From contig OX387608.1 of NCBI GenBank assembly GCA_947568835.1, positions 16,216,535 through 16,280,534 of the forward strand: a stretch of 64,000 nt of DNA. Reading direction: 5' to 3'. The translations under genes and the position numbers were made by a program. Positions 2,605-46,238 of the stretch are shown in pieces (position 1 is the stretch's first letter; each line of letters begins with the position of its first letter). The notes under the pieces were generated by a model. That model saw only the letters and a program-made list of their open reading frames with translations. It did not search any database and was not told the origin of the DNA. Source of the stretch: Protonemura montana (taxonomy: Eukaryota; Arthropoda; Insecta; Plecoptera; Nemouridae).

Positions 2605-4020
2605 GGTCATGTGTATGACGGTCACCCATCCAATACCTGACCCAGCGCAGTGTTGCTTAACTTTCATCCCTCTAAACTCTCTCCGAACAGAACTGGTCAT
2701 GTGTATGATGGTCACCCATCCAATACCTGACCCAGCGCAGTGTTGCTTAACTTTCATCCCTCCAACCTCTCTACCGAACAGAACTGGTCATGTGTATGAT
2801 GGTCACCCATCCAATACCTGACCCAGCGCAGTGTTGCTTAACTTTCATCCCTCCAACCTCTCTACCGAACAGAACTGGTCATGTGTATGATGGTCACCCA
2901 TCCAATACCCGACCCAGCGCAGTGTTGCTTAACTTTCATCCCTCCAACCTCTCTACCGAACAGAACTGGTCATGTGTATAATGGTCACCCATCCAATACC
3001 TGACCCAGCGCAGTGTTGCTTAACTTTCATCCCTCCAACCTCTCTACCGAACAGAACTGGTCATGTGTATGATGGTCACCCATCCAATACCTGACCCAGC
3101 GCAGTGTTGCTTAACTTTCATCCCTCCAACCTCTCTACCGAACAGAACTGGTCATGTGTATGATGGTCACCCATCCAATACCCGACCCAGCGCAGTGTTG
3201 CTTAACTTTCATCCCTCCAACCTCTCTACCGAACAGAACTGGTCATGTGTATAATGGTCACCCATCCAATACCTGACCCAGCGCTGTGTTGCTTAAATTT
3301 CATCCCTCCAACCTCTCTCCCGAACAGAACTGGTCATGTGTATGATGGTCACCCATCCAATACCTGACTCAGCGCAGTGTTGCTTAACTTTCATCCCTCC
3401 AACCTCTCTACCGAACAGAACTGGTCATGTGTATGATGGTCACCCATCCAATACCTAGCCCAGAGCAGTGTTGCTTAACTTTCATCCCTCCAACCTCTCT
3501 TCCGAACAGAACTGGTCATGTGTATGATGGTCACCCATCCAATACCCGACCCAGCGCAGTTTTGCTTAACTTTCATCCCTCCAACCTCTCTACCGAACAG
3601 AACTGGTCATGTGTATGATGGTCACCCATCCAATACCTGACCCAGCGCAGTGTTGCTAAACTTTCATCCTTCCAACCTCTCTCCCGAACAGAACTGGTCA
3701 TGTGTATGATGGTCACCCATCCAACACCTGACCCAGCGCAGTATCGCTTAACTTTCATCCCTCTAACCTCTCTCCTGAACAGAACTGGTCATGTGTATGA
3801 TGGTCACCCATCCAATACCCGACCCAGTGCTGTGTTGCTTAACTTTCATCCCTCCAACCTCTCTCCCGAACAGAACTGGTCATGTGTATGATGGTCACCC
3901 ATCCAATACCTGACCCAGCGCAGTGTTGCTAAACTTTCATCCCTCCAACCTCTCTCCCGAACAGAACTGGCCATGTGTATGATGGTCACCCATCCAATAA
4001 CTGACCCAGCACAGTGTTGC
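2605..4020 (-). repeat. 91-bp tandem array derived from the 5S rRNA internal control region (array 1)
   Basis: About 15.5 head-to-tail units have a strict 91-bp spacing; GTGTATGATGGTC recurs at 2701, 2792, 2883, 2974 and onward. Read on the minus strand, each unit contains AAGTTAAGCAACACTG, then GGTCAGGTATT, then GGATGGGTGACC. These are the box A, intermediate element and box C of a eukaryotic 5S rRNA gene, in order and at near-native spacing. The 5' and 3' thirds of 5S are missing and are replaced by unrelated sequence (ATCATACACATGACCAGTTC, then a GGTTGGAGGGATG stretch). A three-unit block of 273 bp is repeated almost exactly (2701-2973 and 2974-3246), so the array has a local higher-order period. 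It ends about 540 bp upstream of the myosin start codon. Short open frames in it are by-products of the repeat. Confidence 0.85.
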
Positions 4021-31600: not shown

Positions 31601-34100
31601 GGTCGTATTATGTAGCGCCATGGTAGCACCGCCAAATGACCGCTCTAGGTCGGGGTTATATAATACCACCGGTCGTATTATGTAGCACCATGGTAGCACC
31701 GCCAAATGACCGCTCTAGGTCGGGGTTATATAATACCACCGGTCGTATTATGTAGCCACATGGTAACACCACCAAATGACCGCTCTAGGTCGGGGTTATA
31801 TAATACCACCGGTCGTATTATGTAGCACCATGGTAGCACCGCCAAATGACCGCTCTAGGTCGGGGTTATATAATACCACCGGTCGTATTATGTAGCGCCA
31901 TGGTAGCACCGCCAAATGACCGCTCTAGGTCGGGGTTATATAATACCACCGGTCGTATTATGTAGCCACATGGTAACACCACCAAATGACCGCTCTAGGT
32001 CGGGGTTATATAATACCACCGGTCGTATTATGTAGCACCATGGTAGCACCGCCAAATGACCGCTCTAGGTCGGGGTTATATAATACCACCGGTCGTATTA
32101 TGTAGCGCCATGGTAGCACCGCCAAATGACCGCTCTAGGTCGGGGTTATATAATACCACCGGTCGTATTATGTAGCCATATGGTAGCATTGCTATGCGGC
32201 AGCTGAAGGCACGACCCCAGTGAAACTAATCACTTGTTTGTTCTCAGGGCAAACGGCACATCTTCCTGAGCGAAGGAGCGAGACAGCAGCTGGAGGCGCT
32301 GCGCCAAGGAGCGCGCCACGCGGCCGCGGAGAGGATCTCCCGCGCCTGGCGCGGATGGAGACTGCGCCGGCGGTGGCCGCACATGCGCCGGAGCCTGGAG
32401 CTCTTGCGAGATGCGCGGGCAGCCTTGGCGCCAGCGCAAGCCAGCGCGGCGCAGCCTGCACCCAATACTGGTAGGCAACGACAGGAACGATGTGAAGGAA
32501 ACTTTGAGAAAGTATTTTTCTATCTGGTTCTCTACTTTCTTAAATTAAAAAAAAATCGTACAGCAAGTTTATTTGCAAACAGTAAAGAGAAAGTAGAGTG
32601 TTTTATTATTATGAACACTGTAACCGTCTCAAAAATTGATGCCCAAACGCGGACTCAAACCCTGATCTCCACCTGTCACAGGTGTTGCTCTGACCCATTG
32701 AGCTACTTGGACTCTGGCTCATTCTCATCAAAAACACTAAAATTGTCTCAAAAAGCCAGTGTCCAAGTAGCTCAATTGGCTAGAGCAACATCTGCGACAG
32801 GTGGAGATCAGGGTCCAAGTAGCTCAATTGGTTAGAGCAACACCTGCGACAGGTGGAGATCAGGGTCCAAGTAGCTCAATTGGTTAGAGCAACACCCGCG
32901 ACAGGTGGAGATCAGGATTTGAGTTCCGCGTTTGGGCATCAATTTTTGAGACGGTTACAGTGTTCATTATAAAGTCATGTCCCACTTCCTCAAGAACGCA
33001 AAGGAATTTAGACGCCGGTTAAAAGAAAGCCAAAGACGGAACAATCCAAAAGACAAGTCCTGTAAATAACGTAGCTAACTTCAAATAACTTGGCTAATTT
33101 CATTGTATAACTTCACTGTATTACTAAATTTAATTAAATGTAACACTAACTGGACACCATACAACCGGCGATCATGATTTAACAGAAATGTACTTTCCTA
33201 TTACTCTAAGAACTTGCGTCAGAACATGTACCATGCCTAAGTATGAGAATAAATAAATAATAATAACCATAATAATAAAATTTTCTGCTTCATTGGTTTC
33301 CTGATTGCGTGTTGCAGGTGGAGGAGGTGCGGCATCGACAGCGACGGGCGGCCGGCCGCGACCGCAGCCGATCGCCGGGACTCCGCCCCCTGACCCAGCG
33401 GAGAAGTGCGACCAGGAGATGATACAGCAGACGTGTACTCTCTTTGGGCTGGACCTCGTAAGTCTTTATTTGTTTGTTTCTTAATAGCTTCGATATTACA
33501 ATAATTACCTGAGGCTAATAGAATTACAATAGTGTTGATAGAATTTACAATATAATTGTACCCAGGGAGGTACAAGAAGGCTTGATGGCCCATGTCACTA
33601 TTGTACCTAGAGAGGTACAAGAAGGCTTGATGGCCCATGTCGCTATTGTACCTAGGGAGGTACAAGAAGGCTTGATGGCCCATGTTGCTATTGTACCTAG
33701 GGAGGTACAAGAAGACTTGATGGCCCATGTCGCTATTGTACCTAGGGAGGTACAAGAAGGCTTGATGGCCCATGTCGCTATTGTACCTAGGGAGGTACGC
33801 TGTCCAGAAACGTGCTAACTCCCGTTGTTCCCTCAGGAGCGTCCTCCGCCCGTCCCTCCGAGCCGTCCCTACACGGTGGCCGGGAACACAAAGCTCGGCT
33901 ACCCGCAGACCCGGGTCATGAAGATGCCGTTCCCGGAGGACGGAGCTATCGAAGGGGCTGCTGTATTGGCCAAGGGGGACACAGTCCTCGTGGTAGGAGC
34001 CTCGCAGCGTCGAGGGCATCTCGTTGTGGAGCACGGAGCTGCCGCTCTGCACGTGCCCTTCCAGTTCCTGGAGCTCAAGCCGGCGGCGGCGGCAATCTGA
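4560..34100 (+). CDS. dachs-like: Dachs-like unconventional myosin, 18 exons
   Basis: Exons (mine): 4560-4650, 16053-16385, 17448-17644, 18415-18586, 19349-19521, 20579-20738, 21674-21790, 23122-23357, 24721-24864, 25784-25930, 26369-26542, 26949-27138, 27803-27974, 28808-29019, 30325-30503, 32248-32470, 33318-33457, 33837-34100. The sum is 3324 nt, giving 1107 aa, with every junction in frame and GT-AG. The order is a coiled-coil-prone N-terminus (1-60), a Gln/His/Gly-rich linker (to about 140), the motor (about 180-895), one IQ-like motif (about 929-940) and a Pro-rich tail. The P-loop is GTSGSGKT (265-272), switch I NAESSR (316-321) and switch II DMFGFEEP (582-589). All three differ from the usual GESGAGKT, NxNSSR and DIxGFExF, so weak or absent ATPase is possible. 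Drosophila Dachs acts at the cell cortex in Fat/Hippo growth and planar-polarity signalling; I assign this class from overall resemblance, without a search. Another divergent myosin class is the main alternative. Confidence 0.85.
4651..6589. other. Myosin intron 1, first part
   Basis: This is mixed-composition intron with overlapping short frames on both strands (5027-6364), none with a recognisable domain. A run of G near 5430-5500 is low complexity. No RNA gene or repeat family was recognised. Confidence 0.4.
6590..7857. repeat. 80-bp tandem array with an E-box and a nuclear-receptor DR5-like motif per unit
   Basis: About 15.5 units have an 80-bp period (TAAAGTTGA at 6601, 6681, 6761 and onward). 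One unit near 7150-7190 has lost its middle. Most units contain TGACCTAAAGTTGACCC, whose reverse complement is GGGTCA, five bases, AGGTCA. It is followed directly by CACGTG, or CACGCG in a few units. The array lies in intron 1 of the myosin. There is no coding potential. Confidence 0.9.
8000..8267. mobile_element. Fold-back MITE, copy 2
   Basis: The left arm (8003-8135) matches the 480-610 arm closely. The right part is shortened to the terminal CCCAGTTGAAATAGTTTTTG and the outer end TCAAGTAGACATGAGTCTAA. Confidence 0.8.
8687..9332 (+). repeat. 5S-derived 91-bp tandem array 2, split by a LINE fragment
   Basis: Three plus-strand units run from 8687 to 8968 and about two more from 9161 to 9332. 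They are the same family as the 2605-4020 array but in the opposite orientation. The break falls inside a unit, between GGTATT and GGATGGGCGACC, and is filled by an (ATA)n-headed LINE 3' fragment. ATT occurs on both sides, as for a short target duplication. Confidence 0.85.
8969..9160 (-). mobile_element. 3' fragment of a LINE with (TTA)n tail
   Basis: A run of ATA/AAT triplets is followed by AAGTTTATTGTCGAGATCAA and about 150 bp of AT-rich sequence. The same layout, a triplet run and then GTTTATT, starts fragments at 19868, 25132, 44785 and 61180. This is what the 3' end of a minus-strand LINE with a triplet tail looks like. It sits precisely inside a 5S-derived unit. Confidence 0.55.
9333..14568. 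other. Myosin intron 1, middle part; GC-rich islands, no supported exon
   Basis: From 9340 to 9900 the DNA is GC-rich and follows the 5S-derived array directly; it may be the body of a composite retroelement. From 11500 to 12700 it is GC-rich with frames on both strands, none recognisable. At 11870-11925 an 18-bp unit (GGCAATGACCAGGCGCT) repeats about three to four times. Segments near 12780-12890 and 14150-14265 resemble each other (both have GGGAYGACGACGCC and GTTATTTGG), so they may be two copies of an unnamed repeat. Confidence 0.4.
14569..14604. repeat. Perfect 36-bp palindrome
   Basis: ACCTTCGATCATTAATAG is followed at once by its exact reverse complement, with no spacer. It lies in myosin intron 1, well away from any exon. 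Confidence 0.9.
14605..15865. other. Myosin intron 1, third part
   Basis: A 22-bp direct repeat (CTTGTTCGCTTCGTTG) occurs twice near 15315-15350. The stretch is otherwise AT-rich without recognised features. Confidence 0.4.
15866..16018 (-). repeat. Dispersed repeat shared with 47375-47520
   Basis: The stretch containing TTTTGTGAATGTACCGACCC and ACTAGTTTTAGCAATTTATA is the reverse complement of 47375-47520 with few differences over about 150 bp. It ends about 35 bp before myosin exon 2. Confidence 0.8.
16053..16385 (+). CDS. dachs-like: Myosin exon 2: coiled-coil end and low-complexity linker
   Basis: This exon encodes residues 31-141. The first 30 continue the N-terminal helix (LQQRLRSLSTELVTLRNRLH), which has heptad spacing of leucines. 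The rest is rich in Gly, His, Gln, Ala and Pro, probably a disordered linker before the motor. The exon ends in phase 1 at GCAG|GTCGGT and joins AG at 17448 to form Glu. Confidence 0.75.
16905..17317. mobile_element. Head-to-head pair of tRNA-like SINEs
   Basis: A minus-strand copy (16905-17060) and a plus-strand copy (17100-17317) face each other. Each has a tRNA-like body with A box TAGCTCAATGG and B box GGTTCGAGTCC or close variants. Flanking arms AAAATCGTCTCAAAAA and TTTTTGAGACG are complementary to each other. The plus copy ends in the family tail (CCCGCGCATTGCAAGCGTTT). The pair forms a large inverted repeat just upstream of myosin exon 3. Confidence 0.85.
17731..18161. mobile_element. 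TA-flanked MITE carrying three TGACGTCA sites, copy 1
   Basis: The termini are GGGAAATCTCCTTAA and TTAAAGAGATTTCCC, an imperfect inverted repeat flanked by TA on both sides, as for Tc1/mariner-type MITEs. There is no open frame of note. The interior has three perfect palindromes TGACGTCA. A second, inverted copy lies at 56028-56727. Confidence 0.8.
18185..18265. repeat. Short dispersed repeat ending in CAAATTAATAAA
   Basis: The stretch with GACAACTGACAACC, TTACTATGTAATCGTCCTGG and CAAATTAATAAAT recurs at 23885-23965 and inverted at 24370-24455. It probably is the 3' end of an unnamed retroelement. Confidence 0.55.
18815..19330. mobile_element. Fold-back MITE copy 3 enclosing an RT-derived fragment
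   Basis: The left arm (18815-18945) is the family arm. The matching outer end (TTTTTGTCAAAACTAGTGCTAA) lies at 19306-19330. Between them, 18946-19290 reads as a decayed LINE 3' end, with residues RIRMWNKLPAPV, a stop, then EFRRRLKESQRRNNPKDKSC. This resembles the end of a non-LTR RT (W-N-x-L-P, then F-R-x-x-L-K). The element ends about 18 bp before the P-loop exon. Confidence 0.7.
19349..19521 (+). CDS. dachs-like: Myosin exon 5: P-loop and switch I
   Basis: The first codon is split: G from exon 4 plus GC makes the Gly of GTSGSGKT (residues 265-272). The usual myosin P-loop is GESGAGKT, so Glu is Thr and Ala is Ser here, while the GK(S/T) core is intact. The exon ends with switch I NAESSRI (316-322); the third position, normally Asn, is Glu. 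The sequence between the two is Gly/Ala-rich. Confidence 0.9.
19868..20540 (-). mobile_element. LINE-derived repeat, copy A
   Basis: It starts with an AAT run and TGTTTATTTGATAG. Its sequence (CAGAAGCCAATTCTTCATAC, TGTGAGTTAAAATTAACCCA, then GCATTAAATATAGAATTGAA) recurs in the same order at 25132-25460 with a middle deletion. It lies in myosin intron 5 and ends about 40 bp before exon 6. Confidence 0.6.
20579..23357 (+). CDS. dachs-like: Myosin exons 6-8: motor domain, upper/lower 50K region
   Basis: Exons 20579-20738, 21674-21790 and 23122-23357 encode the stretch starting GHFIEVQVTDGALYRTKI. It includes KNYHIFYQMLAGL, the conserved myosin E/K-x-x-Y-H-I-F-Y-Q-x-L signature, and VRVLSAVLLLGNVRF, the conserved L-x-A-I-L-x-L-G-N-I-x-F signature. 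These two matches are the strongest evidence that this is a myosin head. All junctions keep frame. Confidence 0.9.
21890..22177. repeat. Probable SINE-like element next to a 5S-derived array
   Basis: The stretch starts with TTATTATTATTATT and GTGTTTAACGACGCACTGTT. The latter string also occurs near 8370-8390. It ends with AAGAGGACCATCGGCTTAAT and GTCCCTTCCAAAGGACGG. A 5S-derived array follows directly, as one also follows the other copy. Its class is unknown. Confidence 0.4.
22178..22403 (-). repeat. 5S-derived 91-bp tandem array 3
   Basis: About 2.5 minus-strand units of the same 5S control-region-derived family as 2605-4020 lie here in myosin intron 7. Confidence 0.85.
22404..22884. other. 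AT-rich part of myosin intron 7
   Basis: I see no gene, RNA or repeat family here. Confidence 0.4.
22885..23075 (+). mobile_element. tRNA-like SINE, single plus-strand copy
   Basis: The copy has CTCCTTGGAGAACTGTCATT, the arm AAAATCGTCTCAAAAAGCCA, a tRNA-like body (TAGCTCATTGGTT; GGGGTTCGAGTC) and the arm TTTTTGAGACCGTTATAGTG. It ends about 50 bp before myosin exon 8. Confidence 0.8.
23370..23547 (+). pseudogene. C-terminal fragment of a non-LTR reverse transcriptase
   Basis: A short frame reads HDTRNRNNIFVKSSKLN, then YNKLSKEIRN and STFKTKLYEKF. This follows the usual end of CR1/Jockey-type RTs (H-x-T-R, W/Y-N-x-L-P/S, F-K-x-x-L). Only the last 55-60 residues remain. A second, more decayed copy lies at 45330-45550. 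It is a 5'-truncated insertion in myosin intron 8. Confidence 0.6.
23690..23965. repeat. Dispersed repeat (CATTTGCTGCACTGTGGTAA family), longest copy
   Basis: The blocks TTTTACAAATGTGCATTTGC, GCATAGAACCATAGGTACAT and AATTATGAGTACATAAACAT recur at 28045-28200, and the first block also at 27160-27215. The unit seems to end in CAAATTAATAAATAAATAAA. It is likely a SINE or LINE 3' end; the class is not known. Confidence 0.65.
23966..24720. other. Rest of myosin intron 8
   Basis: AT-rich intron. It contains a minus-strand copy of the CAAATTAATAAA repeat at 24370-24455 and otherwise nothing recognised. Confidence 0.4.
24923..25133. mobile_element. Fold-back element with arms of about 100 bp
   Basis: The left arm begins GTTGTGGTAAGTAATGGACT and runs through GACTTGTGGTCCTAAAAAGG and GTCGACGTTT to ATGTCGGTGCCATCGC read in reverse. 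The right arm is its near-exact reverse complement, ending AGTCCATTACTTACCACAAC. The loop is about ten bases (GGACTGTTGG region). The whole could fold as one hairpin of about 210 nt. It lies in myosin intron 9 and abuts LINE copy B. Confidence 0.85.
25132..25460 (-). mobile_element. LINE-derived repeat, copy B
   Basis: This is a second copy of the 19868-20540 sequence. It matches over the first 240 bp, then a deletion of about 340 bp, then the last 90 bp (GCGTTAAATATAGAATTAAA and onward). Confidence 0.65.
25518..25680. mobile_element. Fold-back MITE, copy 4
   Basis: One complete left arm (AACTATTTCAACTGGGTTTT through GAGCAGTCCTGACAATTTTT) is followed by a short remnant of the other arm (AAAATTGGCAGGACT). 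Confidence 0.75.
25784..25930 (+). CDS. dachs-like: Myosin exon 10: switch II
   Basis: The exon encodes residues 542-590 and ends GFIGILDMFGFEEPK. DMFGFEEP stands where myosins have DIxGFExF: the catalytic Asp, Gly and Glu are kept, and the final Phe is Pro. The exon is 147 nt, phase 0 at both ends. Confidence 0.9.
26085..26275. repeat. GC-rich minisatellite in myosin intron 10
   Basis: The unit CAGCCTTGCCTGGACCCTGC plus a variable number of CCCATGTC steps repeats four times. Confidence 0.8.
26369..27138 (+). CDS. dachs-like: Myosin exons 11-12: lower 50K domain
   Basis: Exons 26369-26542 and 26949-27138 encode the region after switch II (LEHLCVNLCAETMQHFYNTH, equivalent to the L-C-I-N-x-x-N-E-x-L-Q-x-F-F-x-x-H signature) and RTFGIQHFAGRVVYDASDFL (the F-x-I-x-H-Y/F-A-G-x-V-x-Y signature). 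The usual Tyr-Thr-Asn-Glu set is changed in places, which fits a divergent myosin. Confidence 0.9.
27160..27215. repeat. Fragment of the CATTTGCTGCACTGTGGTAA repeat
   Basis: About 55 bp matches 23735-23790, only some 20 bp after the exon 12 donor. Confidence 0.6.
27537..27760. repeat. 10-bp minisatellite (GGACATGCCA)n
   Basis: About 22 decamers repeat head to tail without spacers. Variants are GGGCAAGCCA, GGACATGGCA and GGACATGTCA. The array lies in myosin intron 12, ending about 45 bp before exon 13. Most decamers match 9 of 10 positions of the p53-family half-site RRRCWWGYYY. It is open in several frames only because it has no stop triplets. Confidence 0.9.
27803..30503 (+). CDS. dachs-like: Myosin exons 13-15: actin-binding and SH-helix region
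   Basis: Exons 27803-27974, 28808-29019 and 30325-30503 include HARPHFVRCLRAS (the P-H-F-I-R-C-I-K-P-N signature), AVMRQIRALQVLETVNLMAG (V-x-x-Q-L-x-x-x-G-L-L-E-x-I-x-I) and YPHRMRYKAFNVRFRLL (Y-P-x-R-x-x-F-x-x-F-x-x-R-Y). The Lys-Pro-Asn of the first signature is missing. Residues run to about 899. Confidence 0.9.
28045..28210. repeat. CATTTGCTGCACTGTGGTAA repeat, copy 3
   Basis: About 150 bp matches 23735-23880, with a small duplication (ATAGTCC twice). It lies in myosin intron 13. Confidence 0.65.
28375..28562. mobile_element. Fold-back derivative of the SINE without its tRNA body
   Basis: A minus-strand tail (TTGCAAACGCTTGCAATGCG) leads to AACACTATAACTGTCTCAAA, then a short centre, then the reverse order ATCAATTTTTGAGACAGTTA. 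The two inner arms are nearly perfect complements, and the tRNA-like part is reduced to CGGGGACATA and TATGTCCCCG. Confidence 0.8.
28636..28725 (-). mobile_element. Fold-back MITE, copy 5 (one arm)
   Basis: The stretch AACAGGTACAAGTTACGAAA through GTTGAAATGGTTTTTGTTAA is one arm only, about 80 bp before myosin exon 14. Confidence 0.75.
29020..30324. other. Myosin intron 14
   Basis: AT-rich. A segment of about 45 bp (CTTTCGATTAAGCAAAGTAC and CAAATTCCAAATAT) near 29087 recurs diverged near 29607. Otherwise I recognise nothing. Confidence 0.45.
30596..32190. repeat. 70-bp tandem array in myosin intron 15
   Basis: About 22.5 units have an exact 70-bp spacing (TAATACCACC at 30611, 30681, 30751 and onward). 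The unit runs TAATACCACCGGTCGTATTA, TGTAGCACCATGGTAGCACC, GCCAAATGACCGCTCTAGGT, CGGGGTTATA. From about 31480 the variants CACCA, GCGCCA and CCACA follow one another in a recurring order, giving a higher-order period near 210 bp. It fills nearly the whole intron. Confidence 0.95.
32248..32470 (+). CDS. dachs-like: Myosin exon 16: converter end and IQ-like motif
   Basis: The exon starts GKRHIFLSEGARQQLE, the equivalent of G-x-T-K-V-F-L-R before the lever arm. It then has ERISRAWRGWRLRRRW, a degenerate IQ motif (I-x-x-x-x-R-G-x-x-x-R). One light-chain site is therefore plausible. The end is Ala/Gln/Pro-rich. Confidence 0.85.
32600..32965. mobile_element. Head-to-head SINE pair with a triplicated tRNA-like head
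   Basis: A minus-strand copy (32600-32722) faces a plus-strand copy (32725-32965). In the plus copy the head (GTCCAAGTAGCTCAATTGG through GGTGGAGATC) occurs three times at about 52-56 bp spacing before the single 3' part. Confidence 0.85.
32968..33270 (+). pseudogene. 3' fragment of a LINE (same family as 18960-19290)
   Basis: The stretch AATTTAGACGCCGGTTAAAA, GAAAGCCAAAGACGGAACAA and onward matches 19020-19290 nearly base for base over about 250 bp and ends in AATAAATAATAATAA. Its remaining protein is FRRRLKESQRRNNPKDKSCK, the C-terminus of an RT-like frame. Confidence 0.7.
33318..34100 (+). CDS. dachs-like: Myosin exons 17-18: Pro-rich tail and C-terminus
   Basis: Exons 33318-33457 and 33837-34100 encode a Gly/Pro/Thr-rich stretch, EKCDQEMIQQTCTLFGLDL, a Pro-rich segment (ERPPPVPPSRPY) that could bind SH3 domains, and a folded-looking end (AVLAKGDTVLVVGASQRRGH, FQFLELKPAAAAI). 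The stop is TGA at 34098-34100. The last part could be a small beta domain; I do not recognise a named one. Confidence 0.8.
33560..33800. repeat. 45-bp tandem repeat in myosin intron 17
   Basis: Five units of GTACCTAGGGAGGTACAAGA, AGGCTTGATGGCCCATGTCG, CTATT repeat. The period is a multiple of three, so it stays open on both strands, which creates the long minus-strand frame 33237-34205. Confidence 0.9.
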
Positions 34101-34300
34101 TCGAGGCTCGTTTCGAAGGCTTTTCGTTGCTTCTGATCGAAGGCAACCTGTAGCGTTGGAGTGAAATCGAGCAGTCGTCTGGATATGCAACCTAACCAAT
34201 GACATGTCTTCGAGAGAAGAAAAGGATCAGTCGGGAGAGAAATAAAAGAGCGATGCTGAGGGAGATCGTGTTTAAAACTCCGTACCGATCGAATAAAACT
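34101..34300 (+). terminator. dachs-like: Myosin 3' UTR with two AATAAA signals
   Basis: AATAAA occurs at 34241 and 34292, 140-195 bases after the stop codon. Either could direct poly(A) addition. Confidence 0.55.
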
Positions 34301-36079
34301 GACGAAATTTGAGGCAAAAGCTATGTCTGATGTTTCGCTGGTGTTTTCTGATTATCGGAGATAGAGTCTGGTTTGTTCTTTGTTCAAAATTTTTGGTATC
34401 CATGTGATTTAGATGAAATTGACGGACTGAAAGTTCATTGCGATGGCAATCTGTTGGAACGAAGCTACGTCGGGACGATTGAACGCGTTGGTTGCTTTTC
34501 AAGAGGAAACTTAACCTTGCCACGAGCCGTGAACTCCGTACGAGTCCCGGTCGAAAGTTGTCCCGGTATCCGAAACTTTATACTCGCAGAGGAAGCAATA
34601 ATTCGGCCCGTGAAACTCGAGGCAGGGACTGCTAGACGAGGAAGTACGTGCAATGTTTATCAGAAGTGCCATCCGATTACAATGTGGCGATGATTCTTGC
34701 CCAACGGCTGACAGCTCAAGCCAGTGTACACTTGCCATATTAAGATTTATACAAAGTATTGGATAGATAGCGAGTGAGCCGACGTTTTGTAAGTCGGAGA
34801 CATTCAGCCAATGAAACCAAGTTAGCTGCTAGCGTTGGTGATCGGTGTTTAAAGTGGACCTCGTTTGTTCAAGAAATTATACAAAAACCAGTGCCTTCCT
34901 AGTTTTAAAAAGATTGATTCTATAGAATATATATATATATATGTGTGTGAGTGTATTTTTTTTTCTCTTCATCGTTTTACTTTCAGTTTCAAACAAAGAT
35001 TGTTTAACCATGTTTCCTTTACAATCTTTTTTTTTATCATACAATGTACAGAAAGAGAAAAAGACACTATCTATCTAAATGTTGGTATACCATAGAGCGT
35101 AGCTATTTTAGTATGTTTTGTACATAATATTATTACCAATGATGACAACTAGATTGCATGGGATTTGGATTAACTCGAAGACTATCTATCTCGGTGCTCA
35201 TTGTCTCGGTGCAAATCCGTGAACCTCAGGGCTCTGGCCAACCAACTGTCAGCAACTTACTAACCTTTCAAATACAGTTTTAATCGTTGTTACTGGGTTT
35301 TACTCTCCTTGCTTAGAAAAATGCAATTTGTTGATATCCAACCACCAATCCTTCCTTTTATGATCATAGGTTTTTTCCTTATATATCAATGAAACCGATT
35401 CTTCGGAGAAGAGAAATTACGAGGGTTCAACGAGCGGTATCCCGATTTTCAACTGAATTACAAACGTAGCTTGGAAATTGTAAATGGGAATTATTTAAAC
35501 AGAGTCAATGAAAATTGAAACAAGTGATCATGATCACGTTTTACACAGATTGGACTTCAATTGAACGGGTTAAAGAAAGGTCTCAGTTGTACACAGTTGA
35601 TCAAGGAAAGTACCTAATTTTGTTCAGATTTTTAACTCCAATTGATTTCTTGAAATATGTTCCTAAAGTTCACCATTTTAACATTGTTTTTTAGCTCGGG
35701 TCCGGCTCCAGCTTTTGGCGAAAACGCAAAGCGTCAACTCAAAAGATGGCGCTTGATTTTTGTTGTTGTTCAGTTGGTGACAGCTGTCAAGTAAATTGCA
35801 AATGGCAGTGTAAACGGCGTGGAGTTGACTTTGAAGTTTAAATTCACCTGTTTTCGGCATTTATTAGAAGATAAATCTTTGCACTCCAGATTGAGCCGTT
35901 AACTCCAACGAAATATCTTCACGTCTGTAATTTCTTGCGCATCGAAAGCGGTTAATGTCAAGCTGGGCTCGGTGGAGTTTCACGTGTTCGATTGCGACGA
36001 CGCAAGGGTAGGCGTTGTACAACGCTAGCACTTTCAATTCTCGCCTCGGAAATTTTACTTTATCCTCTCGGCCAAAAAG
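34301..36079. other. Intergenic DNA between the myosin and the membrane-protein gene
   Basis: No gene is supported. Short frames at 34373-34738 on both strands lack recognisable domains. A TATATATATATATG run lies near 34930. Confidence 0.4.
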
Positions 36080-36176
36080 ATGGTCGATTTGTCAGGCGGC
36101 CCAGATGGCCCCATCGAACATGGCTTCAGCAATTCAGTGTTCATCATCCCTGGCGCAATTGTCATCGGGCTGTCAG
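36080..36176 (+). CDS. Small membrane protein, first exon A
   Basis: ATG at 36080 opens 32 codons plus one base, ending TCAG|GTAAG. The peptide is MVDLSGGPDGPIEHGFSN followed by a hydrophobic run (VFIIPGAIVIGLS) that reaches the splice site. Joining G to CT at 42651 gives Ala and the shared tail, a 63-aa product with one membrane span that is completed by the shared exon (AFFGYKLY). This is the shortest leader and has almost no N-terminal domain. Confidence 0.7.
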
Positions 36177-38409
36177 GTAAGAATAACTGCTGCCATATGT
36201 CACATCTGCCCACTACCACCCACTACTACCTGTACGGCTCTGCGATCATTTTGTTCATAAACCGGGGGCTCATAAGCATATCAAAAATTTAATTCACAAG
36301 TGCACATTACCCACCACCCACAATGCAGACCTGCCAGTCAAAAGGCCACTGTTTCCACCCTTTTTTGGAAGGTCTTCCGTTGTGGTTGAATTCCATCGTT
36401 TCATTTTAGTTCCTTCCCTTCAGAGCTCAGATTGAAAACTAGCAATTGAATGCAAGTTAACTTATAAGCAATGTTTAATAGCTACTCTTCTCTGTGCACA
36501 GACTCTCAAATATCAACCTGACTTACCTTCCCTGAGTTAATGCTCTAACCTAGCACAGACTAAAGCGCAGAGGAAAAAGTTCTGATTTGTATTTAATAAT
36601 ATTACAGGTGTCTTCCATTTATCAGTAGTGCTGTATTCAAACTAGTTTCACCTGATCAGTGATAATGTAGTTAGAACATAATTTTGTTTCAATATTTTTA
36701 CAGTAGGTATACAAAGTAAAAATGATATCGAGATATGCAGTAAATGTGGTATCGAAGGCCACTTTTCGTGCAGGTTTTTTAAATAAGCGACCAGAAATAA
36801 AAAATTGACTGAAATCACACCTTTACGTCTTGTATTTTAATTGCTTTGTGAATGTAAACATTGATGGTTAAAATGTGGCTAAAAGTGGTTCTACCGATTA
36901 ACTCACCCACCCCTTTGTCAGCATAGAAATCTTTCTACATTACAACCACACCAGTTCTAGAAATTTTAACCCTGAATGTTACAATAAAACTATAGCTTGC
37001 AGGAACTTATCGAATGTGCTTAATTTTTATGTAGAATTAATTGTGAGCCAGTTGGCAAACCAAGAAAATGTTCGACTACCATCTTTGACAGTAAAAATCC
37101 ACGTCTGTTGCACATAGGTGAAAAGGATGCCAGTTGTAACTACTACTAATTAAAGTATGTCAATATTTGCTGATTGTCGTATAATCACTCACATGTGGCG
37201 ACATATCTTCATCCTCCATCTGTGTTATCTTAGCTGGAATCCCAGTATCTGAATTAGAGATTGAGCTGCCAGTAGACTTGTGGCAATTAGGACTCTTTGA
37301 CAAGCAATTCAGGTGAGCAAAACTGAGACTGTCACAACTAAATGTGCAGATATTTTGAAGGGGAACCAAAATTAAATACAAAACTTGTCACTTCTTAAAA
37401 TTTAAATAAAGCCTTGACATTATTTTTACATTTCTTTAGGTACGACCATCTATATATTTATAAAAAATTTGTTTTTAGTGTCTGTATGAGTTAAAGAGGA
37501 TGCTCAATTGTATCAATTTTATACTTAACAATAACGAGATGTTAGTTATTTGTGCCTCTTCTCAAAAATATCCATTAGCAACCACCTTTTAGTGGCATCT
37601 AGGATCTGGGTACAGAACTATCGTGGTTTTAGCATGCTCTGAACTGTCTCAAACTACCACAGCTTTTTATATTTTGGTGAAAATGTGAACTTTTTGGTAT
37701 TTACAGAGCATACAGAGTGGATTGTTAGTGGATTGTTAGATTACCAGAAATTGTTAGTTATTTTATTTTATGCTGTCAAGCCAACTACACTTGTAAGGCT
37801 TACAAAATATTATTTAGATACGCTGATTGCCTTTCAAAATCTTACTGTAGATTTTTCCAAAAAGATGCGCTTAATGCATGAAAACCAATGCTTTTTCAGT
37901 TTTTAATTAAGTTTGCCAAAAATCAAGAAAGCAAAATGATTGAAAACAAATACAGATAATATTGTAGAAAGTTCATCAGCAATGTCTTGAGCAAATCCGT
38001 ACCGATATAGAATCGCTATTACGTAAAAATTCCTTACAACGACAGTGGAATGCATATTAACTGCAAGTTTTTCAATGGGACTTAAAAAAAAGTTCTGTCA
38101 GTAGCCAACAATTCAACATCTACCGTGAAATGTTCCAGCGTAGAATTCACCGAGCATTTGAAATTACCGCTTAGCAAGTAAGTTATCTAATTAACGGTTA
38201 GAGAGACAAAATCCTGGGACACGTATTGGAGAAGAGGAAAAAAGGAACACAGATACCAATACGAAAAAACCGGTTACGATAGATCACCTTACAGGGTTGG
38301 GTATAAAATGCAGATTTATCTCCCATCGAACCTAGCAAAAATACGTTCAAAAATCACCTAAAATATAAAAGATATCACGTCTCTCAAGATCCCCCTACGA
38401 CAGCGCACC
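36177..38409. other. AT-rich DNA between first exons A and B
   Basis: No exon or repeat family was recognised. If leader B has its own promoter it should lie near the 3' end of this stretch. Confidence 0.4.
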
Positions 38410-38668
38410 ATGTCCGACGAGGTGGACGTCAACGTCGCCCCAGAAGCCGGAGAAAGCTTCGTGTACGACCACTCAAAGCCACCGACCACGGACCAGATCC
38501 TGTCCATCCTGGACTCGCTCACCGGGATGAGCCCGGAAGACAAGGACCAGCTTCGTCGTGAGCTCATGTACAAGGATAAGTTCGGCGAGCTTCCGCCGCC
38601 CACTGCACCTTTCAACACGCAGATGGCCGTGCTCTTCGCCTTTCTGCTGATCATCGTACTCATTTTCG
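38410..38668 (+). CDS. Small membrane protein, first exon B
   Basis: ATG at 38410 opens 86 codons plus one base, ending TTCG|GTACG. The acidic N-terminal part (MSDEVDVNVAPEAGESF) is followed by a likely helix (DQILSILDSLTGMSPEDKDQ) and a membrane segment MAVLFAFLLIIVLIF running to the splice site. With the shared exon the product is 117 aa. Tail length and charge suggest a cytosolic C-terminus; membrane identity is unknown. Confidence 0.75.
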
Positions 38669-38957
38669 GTACGCGCCAGCGTAATGACACTGCGTGGCAT
38701 CGTGAACCATTTCATCGCCATTTCAATCCATCGTGGGCCATTTCAATCCATCGTGGGCCATTTCATGTCGTTTAAAATACTTCCGAACGGTTGCCGACCA
38801 TTTATAACCTTTTATAATCATTGCACAAACCAATTCAAACCACTGCCAGCTGTTTCAGGTTGTGGTGAGCTGCAGTAAGCCATTGCATGCCGTTTGCAAA
38901 CATGGTCAACCAATTTAAACCATTGTCAAAGCCATTTTAATCATCTTCATCTGGCTT

Positions 38958-39235
38958 TAGGATGAAATCTGATTTAAATTGCAAACGCTTGCAATTCGCG
39001 GGGTATTTTATTATTATCAACACTATAACCGTCTCAAAAATTGATGCCCAAACGCGGACTCGAACCCCGATCTCCACCTGTCGCGGGTGTTGCTCTGAAC
39101 CATTGATAAAGTCCAAATAAGTGTCCAAGTAGCTCAATGGTTCAGAGCAACACCCGCGACAGGTGGAGATTGGGGTTCGAGTCCGCGTTTGGCCATCAAT
39201 TTTTGAGACGGTTGTTATGTTGTTAATAATAAAAA
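38958..39235. mobile_element. Head-to-head tRNA-like SINE pair
   Basis: A minus copy with the full tail (38975-39110) faces a plus copy (39118-39235). Both have intact A-box and B-box cores (TAGCTCAATGGTT; GGGGTTCGAGTCC). Confidence 0.85.
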
Positions 39236-40321
39236 AAAATCCATCTGGCTTCTTTGGCAGTTTTTTGCAATCAGCAGAGAGTACGTTAAGTCCTCCTTTT
39301 TTTTCACTGAATTTCACTTTAGTTCCAAATCAATCTTCATTGATCAGCAAGAGTAATCACCTGTTTAATTAGTTACTTGGCCCTAAAGCTGTGCGATAGA
39401 AGAGATGAATTCGTCAAATACAGTAAAGCTGGTCTAAAGCAAATGATGTGCTATTATTTAGCTGGCCAAAGCCAAGAGCGTTGAATCAGTTAATATTTGG
39501 GAAAAGCCAAAAAAAATCTCAGCTTAATTGTGCCATAAGTGAAGTTTTGGCTCGAGTAGTAAGCGAGTGTTAGTTGGTCAATGTGTGATAGTGCATCGAT
39601 AAGTTGACCAAGTGTCTTTTTGGCAAAGCAGTGAAAGCCTGGGAGTGCAGCTGTTTTATACAAATTTGTAAGGTGTTCAGTTGAACTGTAATGCCTTCTC
39701 GACTACCGTGCCAAGGTCCAGCCTCTGCTTGACTTTCCTAAGATAAGATAACTGATAAGAGATACAAACTTCTCAACTAACTAGATCCCAGCTGTTATCA
39801 GCTTACAGTGACCTGAGTTCACTCTCATAATCACTGCACTGATTTGATAGCAACTCGTGGAGTTTTTGGCAGGTCATGCCAACGTAGCATTCGGTCAAGG
39901 CTTGTCAGTCAAGTCTGTACGCTGCTGAGTAGGGTTTGTCAAGATTTCCAATTTGTGAATTGAGAGAAGGCAAAGCGAAAATTCTTGCCAAATTCTCCGG
40001 ACATTTGTGATCGTGATATTACGTTTGTCAACCTAATTTGTCTGCAAACCAAGCCGGCGGCCGTGGTTTGTAAATAGCAGCACATATTCGGGGTCTTGTA
40101 TTTTCTGCGGTGGCCAAAAAACGCATTCTCTGCGCTTTTCGTGAGCGAAGAACTCGAAGCCCCCTGCATCCAGTTTGTGTTGTGCATTTCACTCGATATT
40201 TTTGACCGGAGTGACAAATTTATTTCAAAAAGGCTGATTCCTTTTCTGCGTTAACCATTGCCGCAATCTGAGACCGTTAACCTTGGTCAAAGCCCGCCGA
40301 CAGACATAACCTACCACTGCG
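39236..40321. other. Intron or leader region between first exons B and C
   Basis: No gene or repeat was recognised. The last 80 bases before the 40322 start become GC-richer, as expected of a 5' UTR. Confidence 0.4.
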
Positions 40322-40628
40322 ATGGTTGACACCGAAGATCTCCCCGATCACCTTGGCCCTCGTGCTGATCTCGCGTCCGCCAAGGCTATGGTAGATTCGT
40401 TGGACGCCGACGCGATGAAAGGCCTCCTGGACAAGATGGCCGCCATGCGTGCAGACGCGCTGGCCCGCGGCGTGGACGATGACGACACGGAGATGAAGTC
40501 CGCGATGGCGCAGGAGATGTTTGAAAAGATGCGGCTTGCCATGCATCAAGAGGGCGGTGGCGGCGGGGTGGACGCGAGGCGGATAGCAGTTGTCTTCGCT
40601 TGCGCTCTCATCGTCTTCTTGCTTCTCG
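40322..40628 (+). CDS. Small membrane protein, first exon C
   Basis: ATG at 40322 opens 102 codons plus one base, ending CTCG|GTACG. The acidic, helical N-terminal part (MVDTEDLPDHLGPRADLASA; MKGLLDKMAAMRADALAR) is Met/Ala-rich. A Gly run is followed by the membrane segment IAVVFACALIVFLLL to the splice site. With the shared exon the product is 133 aa. The donor context (CGGTACGC) is like that of exon B, so B and C may be old duplicates. Confidence 0.75.
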
Positions 40629-40702
40629 GTACGCCGGTCGCGCCATCATGTAGTTTGTTGACGTTTATTAGTTAGAATCGGTTCTTGTGAGATCACATAA
40701 GT

Positions 40703-41215
40703 CAGCAACTCTGCGCTGGGTCAGGTATTGGATGGATGACCATCATACACATGACCAGTTCTGTTCGAGAGAGAGGTTGGAGGGATGAAAGTTAAGCAAC
40801 ACTACGCTGAGTCAGGTATTAGATGGATGACCATCATACACATGACCAGTTCTGTTTGGGAGAGAGGTTGGAGGGATGAAAGTTCAGCAACTCTGTACTG
40901 GGTCAGGTATTGGATGGATGACCATCATACACATGACCAGTTCTGTTTGGGAGAGAGGTTGGAGGGATGAAAGTTAAGCAACACTGCGCTGAGTCCGGTA
41001 TTGGATGGGTGACCATCATACACATGACCAGCTCTGTTCAGGAGAGAGGTTGGCGGGATGAAAGTTGAGCAACACTGCGCTGAGTCAGGTATTGGATGGG
41101 TGACCATCATACACATGACCAGTTCTGTTTGGGGGAGAGGTTGGAGGGATGAAAGTTAAGCAACACTGCGCTGGGTCAGGTATTGGATGGTGACCATCAT
41201 TCTTATGGTCAGTTA
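40703..41215 (+). repeat. 5S-derived 91-bp tandem array 4
   Basis: About 5.6 plus-strand units lie in the intron after first exon C. They are more diverged than array 1 (for example AGATGGATGACC for GGATGGGTGACC). Confidence 0.85.
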
Positions 41216-42650
41216 TGTTTAGAGGCAAGTTGGGGGGCTTGAAGCTAGTACAACTACTTTACTCAATTTTCTTTTCATCGGAAAGTATGAAGTGGTCCCC
41301 GTTGGTGCTCTTCGACAGAGATAGGCTATGTTCCGGCAACGGGTCTCCCTTCTTTCTAAACTCTAGATTCATCGCCATCATCAACATCTCATCATTTCAC
41401 ATCATAAATCAATCAATTGTCCTCTTGTCTCCTATAGTTGGAGATTGTATGTGTGGATTGTGATGTGTCTGGTATCAGCTCGTGGCTATTTTAGGTGTGT
41501 AAGTTTGTACGCAACACAATTCGCTGTGCATTTTCCGTGAACTTGAATTATCTTGACGAGAGCCGACTTATTCCATTATTTTGATTCGCATCAGTATGCA
41601 CTTATCAGGATCCATTTAAAAAGTCTTAAATCACAAAAAAATTGCATTTGATAACTGCACTATAAAACAAAAAACTTGTTTATTCTTCCGTGGACTGACC
41701 AGTTAATTTGATACATTGTTTTAGGTAGATTTAACAGGAAACGGAAGGGAGTTATTAACAAAAAAAAATGTTGTGAAATGCAATGAATTGTAGATTCTAA
41801 GTACGCAAAGCTGTATCTGGTTTGGTTAATGCATGTAGAAATGTTTCGTACTGTCCTTTGTAAAGTGTGAGACAGTTGGCTTGGTTGGAAGAGATTGGAG
41901 GAAATGTCTTTGTGGGAAGGAAACTTATTGCCAGATTACTTATTGTAGGGCTGAGCTTTTCTCATTGCATGAATAATCGTCTCAAACCACAGCAAATGCC
42001 ACAGTACCTTAGGGTAGGAAATATGTTACCTTGTTTTGTAGTAACTCCCTTGAGTAGTTTCTGTTAGATAGAATAGGGAGGTACCATTCCTCGACCATGT
42101 AGGTAGAACTTGATATGGAGGATCTTTGACTTTTGATGCCATTAGATAAGGTACTGTCTTAGAGAAAAGTAGTAAAGTTTTCTGCTCTGACGCTCTGTGG
42201 TCCTGTCCGCTTCAAGTCCAAGCCAAATCCTCTCCTATTTTGTGATCAGCACTGGGTTATATTTCAGAAATCATTTTCTATGTTGTTAAAAATGTGATTG
42301 GAAATTGATAAAAACATTGAAGCATTGTGTTGGCACATCCAGCAGTTGCAAAGTACTTTGAAAGTAGTAACATGAAATGTGTACGGGTAGGTACGGGGTT
42401 AGATGCTTTAGATGAAACTTGTCACTTGTTTTGCAAAATGGAGGTTGGAAAAACAAATGCCTTGTGGGTTGCCTTGAAGGTTTTAAACCAAGAAAACCTT
42501 GGAAGGTTTTCAACCGAGCACGTCATGCACAATCAGTAGACTTTCACAATCTCGTGCAGTTTTCATTACATCAAGCAATCTCCATGTGTTATTAAAGCGA
42601 TGACCTAGCGATGCAATCTCCTCTAACCTCAATGTTCTCGCCTGCCACAG
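41216..42650. other. Intron before the shared last exon
   Basis: AT-rich DNA. No exon, RNA or repeat was recognised. Confidence 0.4.
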
Positions 42651-42745
42651 CTTTCTTCGGCTACAAGCTCTACCGCAGCCTGGTGGACAAGGAGAGGAAA
42701 CGAGAGGAGAAGAAGAAGCTCAAGCAGCAGAAGAAGCGAAAGTGA
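42651..42745 (+). CDS. Small membrane protein, shared last exon
   Basis: The acceptor is CCTGCCACAG|CTTTCTTC. The first two bases complete GCT (Ala) with the G left by any of the three leaders. The exon encodes the end of the membrane span (AFFGYKLYRSL) and a tail of about 20 residues that is almost wholly Lys, Arg, Glu and Gln, ending KKLKQQKKRK, then TGA at 42743. The terminal KKRK resembles a di-lysine-type ER retrieval signal in charge, not in exact spacing. I do not recognise the family. Confidence 0.75.
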
Positions 42746-43700
42746 ACGCATCTCTCGCTGGCTGCCAATGTCACAATTATATCGAGCTATCACTTTCTAA
42801 CCTAACATTCCCGTGTGTTTTCTACTCGACTGCCTGCCCCGAAACTGTCCGTCACCACGCATTCAACCAACGCTTTAAACCCTTGCCAACTATTCTTGCT
42901 TTTATCAATCGCTTTCGATTGCAGTACAAGGGTATGCAAATGACATGTGATCAGACGAAAAGAGAAGCCGGGAAATCCTTGTATACCAGATACGAGCCTG
43001 CTCATATGTCAAACAACGCAAGTATAGGTCTTGTCCCTTCCGAAGAAATGCACAATTCGAACAGTGCGGACTTCTTCATCAATTAAGTCGTAACTCCTAG
43101 AGATTCTACTTTCCTGTAGACCGTTTGATTGATCTGATCTTGTGGGTTAGAAAAAAGAAAAAGAAATTGTTTCAAATTTGATAGAAAAAGCTTATCAACA
43201 AAATGTAAACAATATTGAGTTAGGCCTAGGTCTTGCTCCCATACTGCCAATTGATTTTTCCAAAGCACAGTTATTCATGGAGTTTTTTAATTAGCAATTA
43301 TAAGTTGGCCATTGAAACTCTTCCTATTGCCAAACTGCACCGCAAATTCGATTAACCGATCGTAAATCTGACGTAAGTATTCCACAGCACTGCAGGAAAC
43401 AACGCTGGTATCTCGACCAGCTGTCAACGCTGCAACAAACAAATGTTTTCAACACCAAGCACAAAGAATGTATTTCTTATCTCGGTATCAGTATTTACGT
43501 TGAATCTATCAGACGAATCGAGATAAGGCTTTTATCTTCTATCGATGGCCGTCATTGCGTGCTGATTGGGATTTCATATCTGGGTCCTAGCTATCAGTTT
43601 GTGTCAGTGTTAAAACAGTTGCAACACGTTACTCACCCTGGCTGCTTTGCTCGAGTCTCGTTTAAGTCGGTACGGATCGATAGGTTGTCGGGGAAACGCA
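42746..43700. other. 3' UTR of the membrane-protein gene and intergenic DNA
   Basis: No clear AATAAA was noticed directly after the stop codon. The frame at 42742-43086 lacks a recognisable domain. The part from about 43560 is presumably 5' UTR or promoter of the next gene. Confidence 0.4.
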
Positions 43701-46238
43701 ATGCGCTGGCTGCAGCTGGCTGCGCTGGCTTCGCTGGCTGCGCTGGCCCAGGCTAGCATCGACGTCACTTGCTCAGAAGCATACTGTAAGGTACGTGGTT
43801 GTGCGAGGTGGGAACGGTAGGCGAACTTTGGTGGCAGTTACCGAGCTAAACGGAACGAACATTAATAAGAATTTAACTTCCTATCTTGGATTTGAATGTT
43901 GTGTGAGTTTCCAGCTGTTTTTTTGTGCAATTGTTTGCATTTATTTATGCGTTCGCAGCCCATGCATGGCGTGGACAGGTTTCATAAGAGTTTTATTTTT
44001 AGTCCAAGTAACAGCTGTGCAAATGTGATTTAAATTGCAAATGCTTGCAAGGTGCAGTAATTTATTATCAGGAACTCAAATAATCTCTCGAATATTGACA
44101 AAAATTCCTTAAACATTAAGTTTTGTTTTTGTTTGGTTTAGTAGGTAATGTAGACACGAGTCTAAAAACCATGATTCTTTATTGGGTTACTAATTTGGTG
44201 CTCAGTGTGGTTGCATTGGTATGGGTTGGAAAATTGTCAGGACTGCCCTTACCCTTGATAAAGTAACAGGTACAAGTTACAAAACGTCGGGAAATTTAGT
44301 TGTTCTTCACTTAGCATTCAAAACCCAGTTGAAATAGTTTTTGTCAAAGCTAGTGCTAAGTTTACATCAAGTAGACATGAGTCTAAAACCTAGAACAGCT
44401 CCGACAGTTTTCGTTTCTTACGTAGCTTTCAGATCCAAGCTTGGAGACAGGGATTCTGAGATAGCTCTTAGGCGTGGGAAAAGAAACGAGACTTGCTGAT
44501 ATCACGAGAATTATTGTATTTTTGTGTCCATGCAAATAATGTCATGGGGTCGCTGTCTGTGTTTTTGTTGTTGAATAAATGGAATAGATATTTTGAAAAT
44601 GAAAAAAGAACCGAAGTTTTATTCAGCATTTGAAACCCAAATTTATTATTTGAATTTCGTTATGCAGTGCTATTTTAACACTCGAGTGTAAACCTATCGT
44701 TTAGATGATCGGCACTGAAATTAGCCAGCTTGAAATTGCCACCCGTGAGGTGATTCTAAGATTCTGCTTCAATTCTGGTTTATAATAATAATTATATTAA
44801 CAGCGTATATTTATTCAGTGAACAATACAATAATTGTTGTAGAACATGTCATACACTAGATAATAAAAATTATCGATAATAACCTACTTTGCGAGAAAAT
44901 CACATATAGAGTATGGGTATAGTTCCACAAGGTGGTCTCTCAGCCGGTTTTTAAAACAATTGTTATTTTGGTTCTTTTTTAATACTTTTAGGTAGGTTAT
45001 TGAATAGTTGAAAACACTTGCATTTGAACGACTGCAACCATTAGCAAAAATTGCAGACATCAATCGAGATATGTAGTCGTCGATATCGGTGCTGGTCTGT
45101 AATCTGGGACAATTTTGTGAGCAATTGTTAAGGTTATGGAAATTGTTGATAGAAGATAGAGAAAAAAATGCAGTAGAGTAGCATGAAAATAGATGATTTA
45201 ATTTCAGTGATTATAATTTAATTTTATGTTATTATCAAAATCCTATTTGAGAGTATAACAGCTAATGTGAAAATGTATTTCAAAATATCATCTGCTAAAT
45301 AAAAATATTACATACTATATAAAATTATGTTAGGATTGGCACCAGAGTATTCGATAGATCTAATTAATATTGCTGATAAGATGCACAATCATGATACTAG
45401 AAATAAGAAAAATATATTTGTTAAATCTGTAAAATTAAATAGTATTTGAACTAAAGGCGTGAGTGAATATAATAAATTAGGAAGCATAATAAGGATTACA
45501 AAATCAATATTAAATTTTAAGAAAGAATTGTGTGAACGTTTTGAAAATTAAGAATTGAGTGAGTATTTGTGTTGAACATTGTGGATGTACTGAATAGCTG
45601 TGAAGCTAATTAAAACATTATAATTAAACAAACAAACAAAAAATGCTGGGTGGGTACCAATTGAGTCTTCTCTTAAAGTTCTGTTGTCTTCCATACAATT
45701 GGAAACCGAAGGCAAGGTACATTAAGCCAGGTTTGTTGCATATGTATGTTGTGTCATACCACCATGAAACGTGGCATTGTTGCTAACTGTCCTAGGAGTA
45801 CGTGGAGAAGACCGGATGCCCCAAGCTCCCGAAGGGGTGCACGGATGCCAACCTTGCCGCGGGGTTGGCGGTGCTGATGCCATCACCGACCATCTGTAAT
45901 TGCTGTGATTTTTGCATCACATACCTTGGTACGTCCGGGGTACGGTTATAGCGATTTTTAGCTGCTTCTTTCTACGCAATGCCAACACAGAAAGTTTATG
46001 GGTAGACAACTCCTCTTTTACGAAGATTATAAAACTACTGCTAACGCAATGATCATCATAAGTTTTCATAAGTTGGACTAGCTGCATAAGAGGAAGGTAT
46101 TCCGATGTGGGTTTTGTGTTTCAGTCGAGGGTGATTCTTGTGTCGTTGGAGGTACGAGCCAGAACGTGCCAGTCTGCGGGCCTGGCCTCGGGTGTGTCAA
46201 GTCGTCTTCACAGTTTGAGTCTTCAACCTGCAAACCAC
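43701..46238 (+). CDS. Exons 1-3: signal peptide and IGFBP-like Cys-rich domain
   Basis: Exon 1 encodes MRWLQLAALASLAALAQA, a textbook signal peptide, then SIDVTCSEAYCK. Exon 2 has CPKLPKGC and TICNCCDFC. Exon 3 has GDSCVVGG and VCGPGLGCV. The Cys spacing and CGPGLxC motif are like the N-terminal domain of IGF-binding proteins, with CNCCxxC in place of the canonical GCGCCxxC. Intron 3 consists almost wholly of a 68-bp minisatellite. Confidence 0.75.

Follow-up and report, generated by a model that had tools for sequence, protein, structure and literature searches.

Three predicted leader exons and one shared last exon

The DNA analyzed here is a stretch of 64,000 nucleotides (nt) from the plecopteran Protonemura montana (GenBank assembly GCA_947568835.1, contig OX387608.1, positions 16,216,535 to 16,280,534 of the forward strand), referred to below as the window, with positions counted from its first letter. 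Between a myosin gene and a candidate gene for a secreted protein, it holds three leader exons, A, B, and C, which span 4.6 kb and all lie 5′ of a single shared last exon (Table 1). Each leader opens with ATG, with an in-frame stop codon 54 (A), 51 (B), or 15 (C) nt upstream, and closes with hydrophobic residues, none of them charged, that run up to a G/GT donor (a slash marks the splice site throughout). Joined to the shared exon, the leaders give predicted products of 63, 117, and 133 amino acids (aa), all in frame, and the junction codon of each combines the last G of the leader with the CT at 42651 to encode alanine. An initial annotation of this DNA had given these coordinates, phases, junction codon, and product lengths, and all were reproduced when rechecked on the sequence, as were the acidic heads and the KKRK C-terminus that it had claimed. 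The observation of three leaders that can be joined to one tail exon is confirmed at the sequence level. These exons probably form one gene in which three alternative promoters and first exons swap heads on one membrane tail.

Table 1. Predicted exons, candidate promoters, and CpG-depleted intron stretches (o/e, observed/expected ratio)
Feature	Position	Strand	Description
Leader exon A	36080..36176	+	97 nt, phase 1; 18-aa acidic head (net charge -3), 14 span residues
Leader exon B	38410..38668	+	259 nt, phase 1; 71-aa acidic head (net charge -8), 15 span residues
Leader exon C	40322..40628	+	307 nt, phase 1; 87-aa acidic head (net charge -8), 15 span residues
Shared last exon	42651..42745	+	closes span with AFFG, then 27-residue basic tail, KKRK-stop
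Candidate promoter A	35580..36079	+	CpG o/e 1.22; TpG+CpA 1.07
Candidate promoter B	37810..38409	+	CpG o/e 1.12; TpG+CpA 0.99; TATA-like sites 38302, 38364
Candidate promoter C	39851..40321	+	CpG o/e 1.04; TpG+CpA 1.21
CpG-depleted intron stretch after A	36177..37800	+	CpG o/e 0.39; TpG+CpA 1.27
CpG-depleted intron stretch, B to C	39240..39850	+	CpG o/e 0.38; TpG+CpA 1.23
CpG-depleted intron stretch 5′ of shared exon	41211..42640	+	CpG o/e 0.55; TpG+CpA 1.24

The predicted membrane span is composite, with 14–15 residues from the leader followed by AFFG from the shared exon, and the tail, counted from the tyrosine that follows, carries a net charge of +10. No signal peptide is apparent in the products on reading. 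Leader C modelled alone gave four helices at low confidence (predicted local distance difference test score 61, from a single sequence).

The membrane halves of the leaders differ in how closely they resemble one another. In the last 45 full-codon bases, aligned in register at the donor, B and C are identical at 27 positions, a value reached by 37 of 20,000 codon shuffles, and 7 of the 15 amino acids in their span halves are identical, with a score reached in 152 of 20,000 shuffles. The score of A against B was reached in 8146 of 20,000 shuffles, and that of A against C in 3081, their 4 identities in 14 residues being reached in 613 of 20,000. Over the whole heads, no similarity beyond chance was found (shuffles reaching the score: B–C, 688 of 2000; A–C, 186 of 2000; A–B, 995 of 2000). 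Given the match between B and C in the span half, which the initial annotation did not mention, this part of the two leaders may derive from an old duplication, and A, with no clear match, may be of separate origin.

Coding signal and splice sites

Codon usage was scored as per-codon log-odds, for which the training set comprised 336 codons in five exons of the myosin gene upstream. Two of these exons lie in open reading frames (ORFs) with Pfam Myosin_head matches, and the remaining three were assigned by reading. The predicted frame scored highest in leader B (0.64 vs -0.17 and 0.20), in leader C (0.74 vs 0.22 and 0.24), and in the tail exon (0.75 vs -0.41 and 0.23).

The donors read CAG/GTAAGA in A and TCG/GTACGC in both B and C. 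Under a generic metazoan matrix, the donor of A scores 7.15 and those of B and C score low, at 0.26; of four myosin exon ends inspected in the window and placed by reading, two likewise show the form G/GTACG. The acceptor of the shared exon, TGCCACAG/CTTTC, has a modest pyrimidine fraction of 0.647.

The whole window was scanned on both strands and in three phases for leader-like exons, defined as an ATG-initiated ORF of 30–150 codons ending at GGT[AG]NG, with the last 14 aa uncharged and a mean hydropathy of at least 2.1. Among 138 donor-like sites, exactly three ORFs passed, each corresponding to one of the leaders and every one of them in phase 1, and 20 order-2 Markov sequences searched on both strands in phase 1 only contained no such exon; the thresholds of the scan were chosen after the leaders were known. 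A scan with a different donor filter retained A, lost B and C, and gained one ORF at 47822–48059 within a tandem repeat.

CpG content and candidate promoters

CpG lies near expectation in the sequence immediately upstream of each leader and is depleted in the three intron stretches (Table 1). Fisher tests of upstream CpG against the three intron stretches gave p = 3e-6 for A, 0.004 for B, and 2e-5 for C. Within the exons, the CpG o/e is 1.13 in B, 1.23 in C, and 0.69 in A, and it is 1.21 in the 401 nt upstream of the start of the downstream candidate gene (43701). When TATA-like sites were sought upstream of the leaders, they were found only at B, with none at A or C. A two-state Markov segmentation for CpG was dropped, as its states tracked G+C and not CpG.

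This pattern suggests separate promoters within one transcribed body, and its simplest reading would be a methylated gene body, transcribed in the germline, with unmethylated promoters. In arthropods, the methylation of genes is usually stronger in exons than in introns, two crustaceans showing little difference (PMC7343188). Because of this usual preference for exons, the CpG pattern is consistent with promoters and not diagnostic of them.

Candidate last exons, copies, and noncoding RNA

A first list of phase-1 acceptors used a pyrimidine cut-off of 0.65, which the proposed acceptor just missed; it held 10 acceptor-like sites after A, 5 after B, and 7 after C. At a cut-off of 0.6, the numbers rose to 22, 9, and 21, of which 17, 4, and 13 gave readings of at least 8 aa. 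Of these 34 readings, all from sites lying between A and 42651, that of the proposed tail has the highest net charge (+10), the next being +5. Separate last exons for A or B were therefore not adopted, the proposed tail being the sole strongly basic reading, although a last exon of another kind is possible.

One exon-like stretch, 37234–37312 on the + strand in the intron after A, has both acceptor and donor matches, is open only when entered in phase 1, and exits in phase 2. It is the sole exon-like acceptor/donor pair found in the introns of this gene; in the window, open-frame pairs of that strength number 9 on the + strand (this one included) and 15 on the - strand. A route from A through this stretch was rejected, as the tail exon would be read in another frame, with a synonymous-codon score of -0.48 compared to 0.82 in the predicted frame, and the 144-aa reading through it had no Pfam match at E 5.

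In a search of the genome (258,480,905 bases in 34 contigs), in which scoring covered the best candidates, the tail and leaders A, B, and C each had one match, and no second copy of the tail exon or of the full products was present among the scored candidates. Two further matches, with E-values of 1.18 and 2.58, were not credited as paralogues. A search of 34000–44000 for RNA families returned only a tRNA match, at 39123–39195.

Resemblance to known protein families

No Pfam family matched any of the three products above its cut-off. The span end and lysine-rich tail of all three weakly match PF15086 (UPF0542/SMIM15), at 14.5 bits for the 63-aa form and 13.1 and 12.6 bits for the others, against a gathering score of 27. 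However, other families match the 117- and 133-aa forms as weakly or better, and the 117-aa form has weak matches to OAD_gamma (E 0.01) and TRAP_alpha (E 0.02).

A phmmer search of the PDB with the 63-aa form aligned the span end and tail with FKBP11 residues 161–197 (GY.LYR followed by KKKLK), at an E-value of 0.79 that is not significant; there, D-amino-acid oxidases rank above FKBP11 (E 0.61 and 0.65). When the tail was block-shuffled, 5 of 5000 shuffles reached the score of its alignment with FKBP11. FKBP11 is not among the matches listed for the 31-aa tail alone or for the 117- and 133-aa forms. One study attributes to the positively charged helix at the C-terminus of FKBP11 an important part in ribosome binding and places it beside uL22 and helix H24 of 28S rRNA (PMC12804085). 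FKBP11 and the products considered here share GY.LYR followed by a lysine-rich stretch, but the latter have no FKBP domain by Pfam and, by reading, no signal peptide, and the similarity is not significant. The resemblance to the ribosome-binding tail of FKBP11, which the initial annotation does not mention, is taken as the best functional lead and not as a sign of family membership. Among the papers listed for alternative first exons, tail-anchored proteins, FKBP11, and small integral membrane proteins, none was recognized as describing this gene.

Neighboring genes and repeats

The upstream myosin gene has exons on the + strand from 20438 to 34100, with Myosin_head matches in the ORFs at 20438–20770 and 26868–27200. 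By reading, its last coding exon ends near 34100, with AATAAA-like sites beyond. Downstream, the candidate secreted-protein gene (43701–53300, + strand) has a signal-peptide-like start at 43701, by reading, and cysteine-rich exons; an IGFBP match in this region (E 0.042) falls below the cut-off, and a thyroglobulin type-1 match lies in 52993–53298. The same region contains an ORF of 1237 aa (48280–51993, + strand) that resembles, by reading, a protein of a retrotransposon of the type lacking long terminal repeats.

Five tRNA-Ser(CGA) matches occur in the 64 kb, at 16947, 17151, 39122, 55493, and 63557. The sequence around the one near 39122 is repeated in both orientations and resembles, by reading, a tRNA-derived short interspersed element (SINE). 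A 91-bp tandem unit, the same by reading in either orientation, occurs at 2605–4020, 8687–8970, 22182–22401, and, in the intron after C, 40704–41200. Arrays with a 70-bp unit lie at 30605–32188 (22.6 copies, in a myosin intron) and 57306–59832 (36.1 copies).

Discussion

In the proposed mechanism, each first exon would encode its own acidic head together with the initial 14–15 residues of a single membrane span and would be spliced in phase 1 to the shared exon, which would close the span and add the net +10 tail. Depending on the promoter used, a different head would be placed on an unchanged anchor and tail, and with the head in the lumen and the tail in the cytosol, the basic helix and terminal KKRK could hold the protein at the endoplasmic reticulum (ER). 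The promoter-driven leader exchange put forward in the initial annotation gains support at the sequence level from the CpG contrast, from the codon scores of B, C, and the tail, and from the finding of no other tail-like last exon. The frames, phases, splice-site matches, lack of a second tail copy among the scored candidates, CpG contrast, and B–C resemblance are read directly from the sequence; promoter activity, membrane insertion, and splicing are inferred.

Several observations weigh against this scheme. The codon usage of leader A is neutral (log-odds -0.06), and the stretch at 37234–37312 could close its hydrophobic end. Between the stop codon and 43701, there is no AATAAA or ATTAAA, the first AATAAA lying at 44574, and of ten further hexamers sought in that interval, only AAGAAA is present. 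The TpG+CpA value upstream of C is about that of the introns. The limits of the CpG regions were chosen after the profile had been viewed, and the tests excluded the 307 nt 3′ of B, which are undepleted (CpG o/e 0.94), the SINE-like repeat at 38976–39239, and the tandem repeat after C (o/e 0.45). Furthermore, of 254 overlapping tiles across the window, 70 have a CpG o/e of at least 1.05; as a single island is not rare, the weight of the CpG evidence rests on three rises at three leaders amid depleted sequence. The three heads contain neither sequons nor cysteines, which mildly favors a cytosolic head.

The features of leader A noted above might indicate that only B and C are real tandem relatives on the tail exon and that A belongs to another transcript, for example one that uses 37234–37312, or is a chance ORF. 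Its neutral codon usage, the lack of a clear resemblance to B and C in the membrane half, and the presence 3′ of A of an exon-like stretch whose only open phase is phase 1 would fit such a reading. We consider it unlikely, as A has the best donor of the three leaders, near-expected CpG upstream, and the phase and hydrophobic end common to all, and exon-like pairs as strong as that at 37234–37312 occur elsewhere in the window. That all three leaders are chance or decayed ORFs 5′ of an unrelated exon appears very improbable in light of the codon scores, the leader scan compared to the simulations, and the CpG contrast. One gene with three first exons is the reading preferred here, and a functional proposal compatible with it is that the tail docks at the ribosome or translocon in the manner of FKBP11, the heads serving as interchangeable lumenal factors for the secretory translocon. 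The alignment with FKBP11, its rarity among shuffles, and the reported role of the FKBP11 helix speak for such docking, but we hold it to be quite unlikely, given an E-value that is not significant, the higher rank of D-amino-acid oxidases, the failure of the tail alone and the other forms to list FKBP11, and the missing FKBP domain and signal peptide.

The orientation in the membrane is the least secure step. Under the positive-inside rule, the net +10 tail and the acidic heads favor a cytosolic tail, so that the head is most likely outside, in the lumen. The terminal KKRK fits the KKXX pattern of ER retrieval. The initial annotation described a protein of the tail-anchored type; the single span 27 residues from the C-terminus and the lack, by reading, of an N-terminal signal agree with this description, but the charges of the tail and heads point the other way. 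With the same gene layout, the products could instead be conventional tail-anchored proteins with cytosolic heads and post-translational insertion into the ER or the mitochondrial outer membrane, the three heads addressing different partners. The position of the span, the composition of the heads, and the helical model of leader C, low in confidence, are in line with such an arrangement, which we regard as a possible although not the likely outcome. It would require a 27-residue tail of net charge +10 to cross the membrane, and according to one study, mitochondrial tail-anchored proteins are poor substrates of EMC, the ER insertase, partly because of their positive flanks (PMC13261788).

Gene clusters with variable first exons and a constant part offer a useful comparison. 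In Ugt1 and the clustered protocadherins, several first exons with their own promoters are each spliced separately to shared constant exons, and the variable exons closely resemble one another and have roughly equal lengths (PMC2819257). The present gene, as predicted, resembles them in that several first exons, each with a candidate promoter, fit one constant exon in phase, frame, and splice sites. It differs from them in that its leaders, of 97, 259, and 307 nt, are neither equal in length nor highly similar, the resemblance being confined to the span halves of B and C, and in that its constant part is a single coding exon of 95 nt joined inside a membrane span. The sDscam genes of chelicerates have alternative promoters ahead of tandem 5′ cassettes that are joined to a constant part (PMC4835542). 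Alternative candidate promoters, tandem 5′ units, and a shared constant part are likewise predicted here, but the sDscam cassettes encode immunoglobulin domains, generally in two or four exons (PMC4835542), whereas the units of the present gene are single small exons with no immunoglobulin match. The predicted layout is ordinary in principle; what is unusual is its small size, its mostly unrelated heads, and a join within the span.

The most far-reaching proposal, which we offer as doubtful, is a miniature variable/constant gene split inside the membrane span, with largely unrelated heads on an FKBP11-type docking tail and with promoter choice placing different factors at one site of the ER translocon. 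If the preferred layout of three first exons and one tail exon is confirmed, whatever its function, the variable/constant logic of first exons would extend to a membrane protein of very small size whose heads are largely unrelated. As its splice point would lie within the membrane helix, the joining rule would reduce to hydrophobicity and phase 1 only. Furthermore, the gene would provide one anchor with three naturally exchanged heads, with which the effects of head and tail charge on membrane orientation could be tested.

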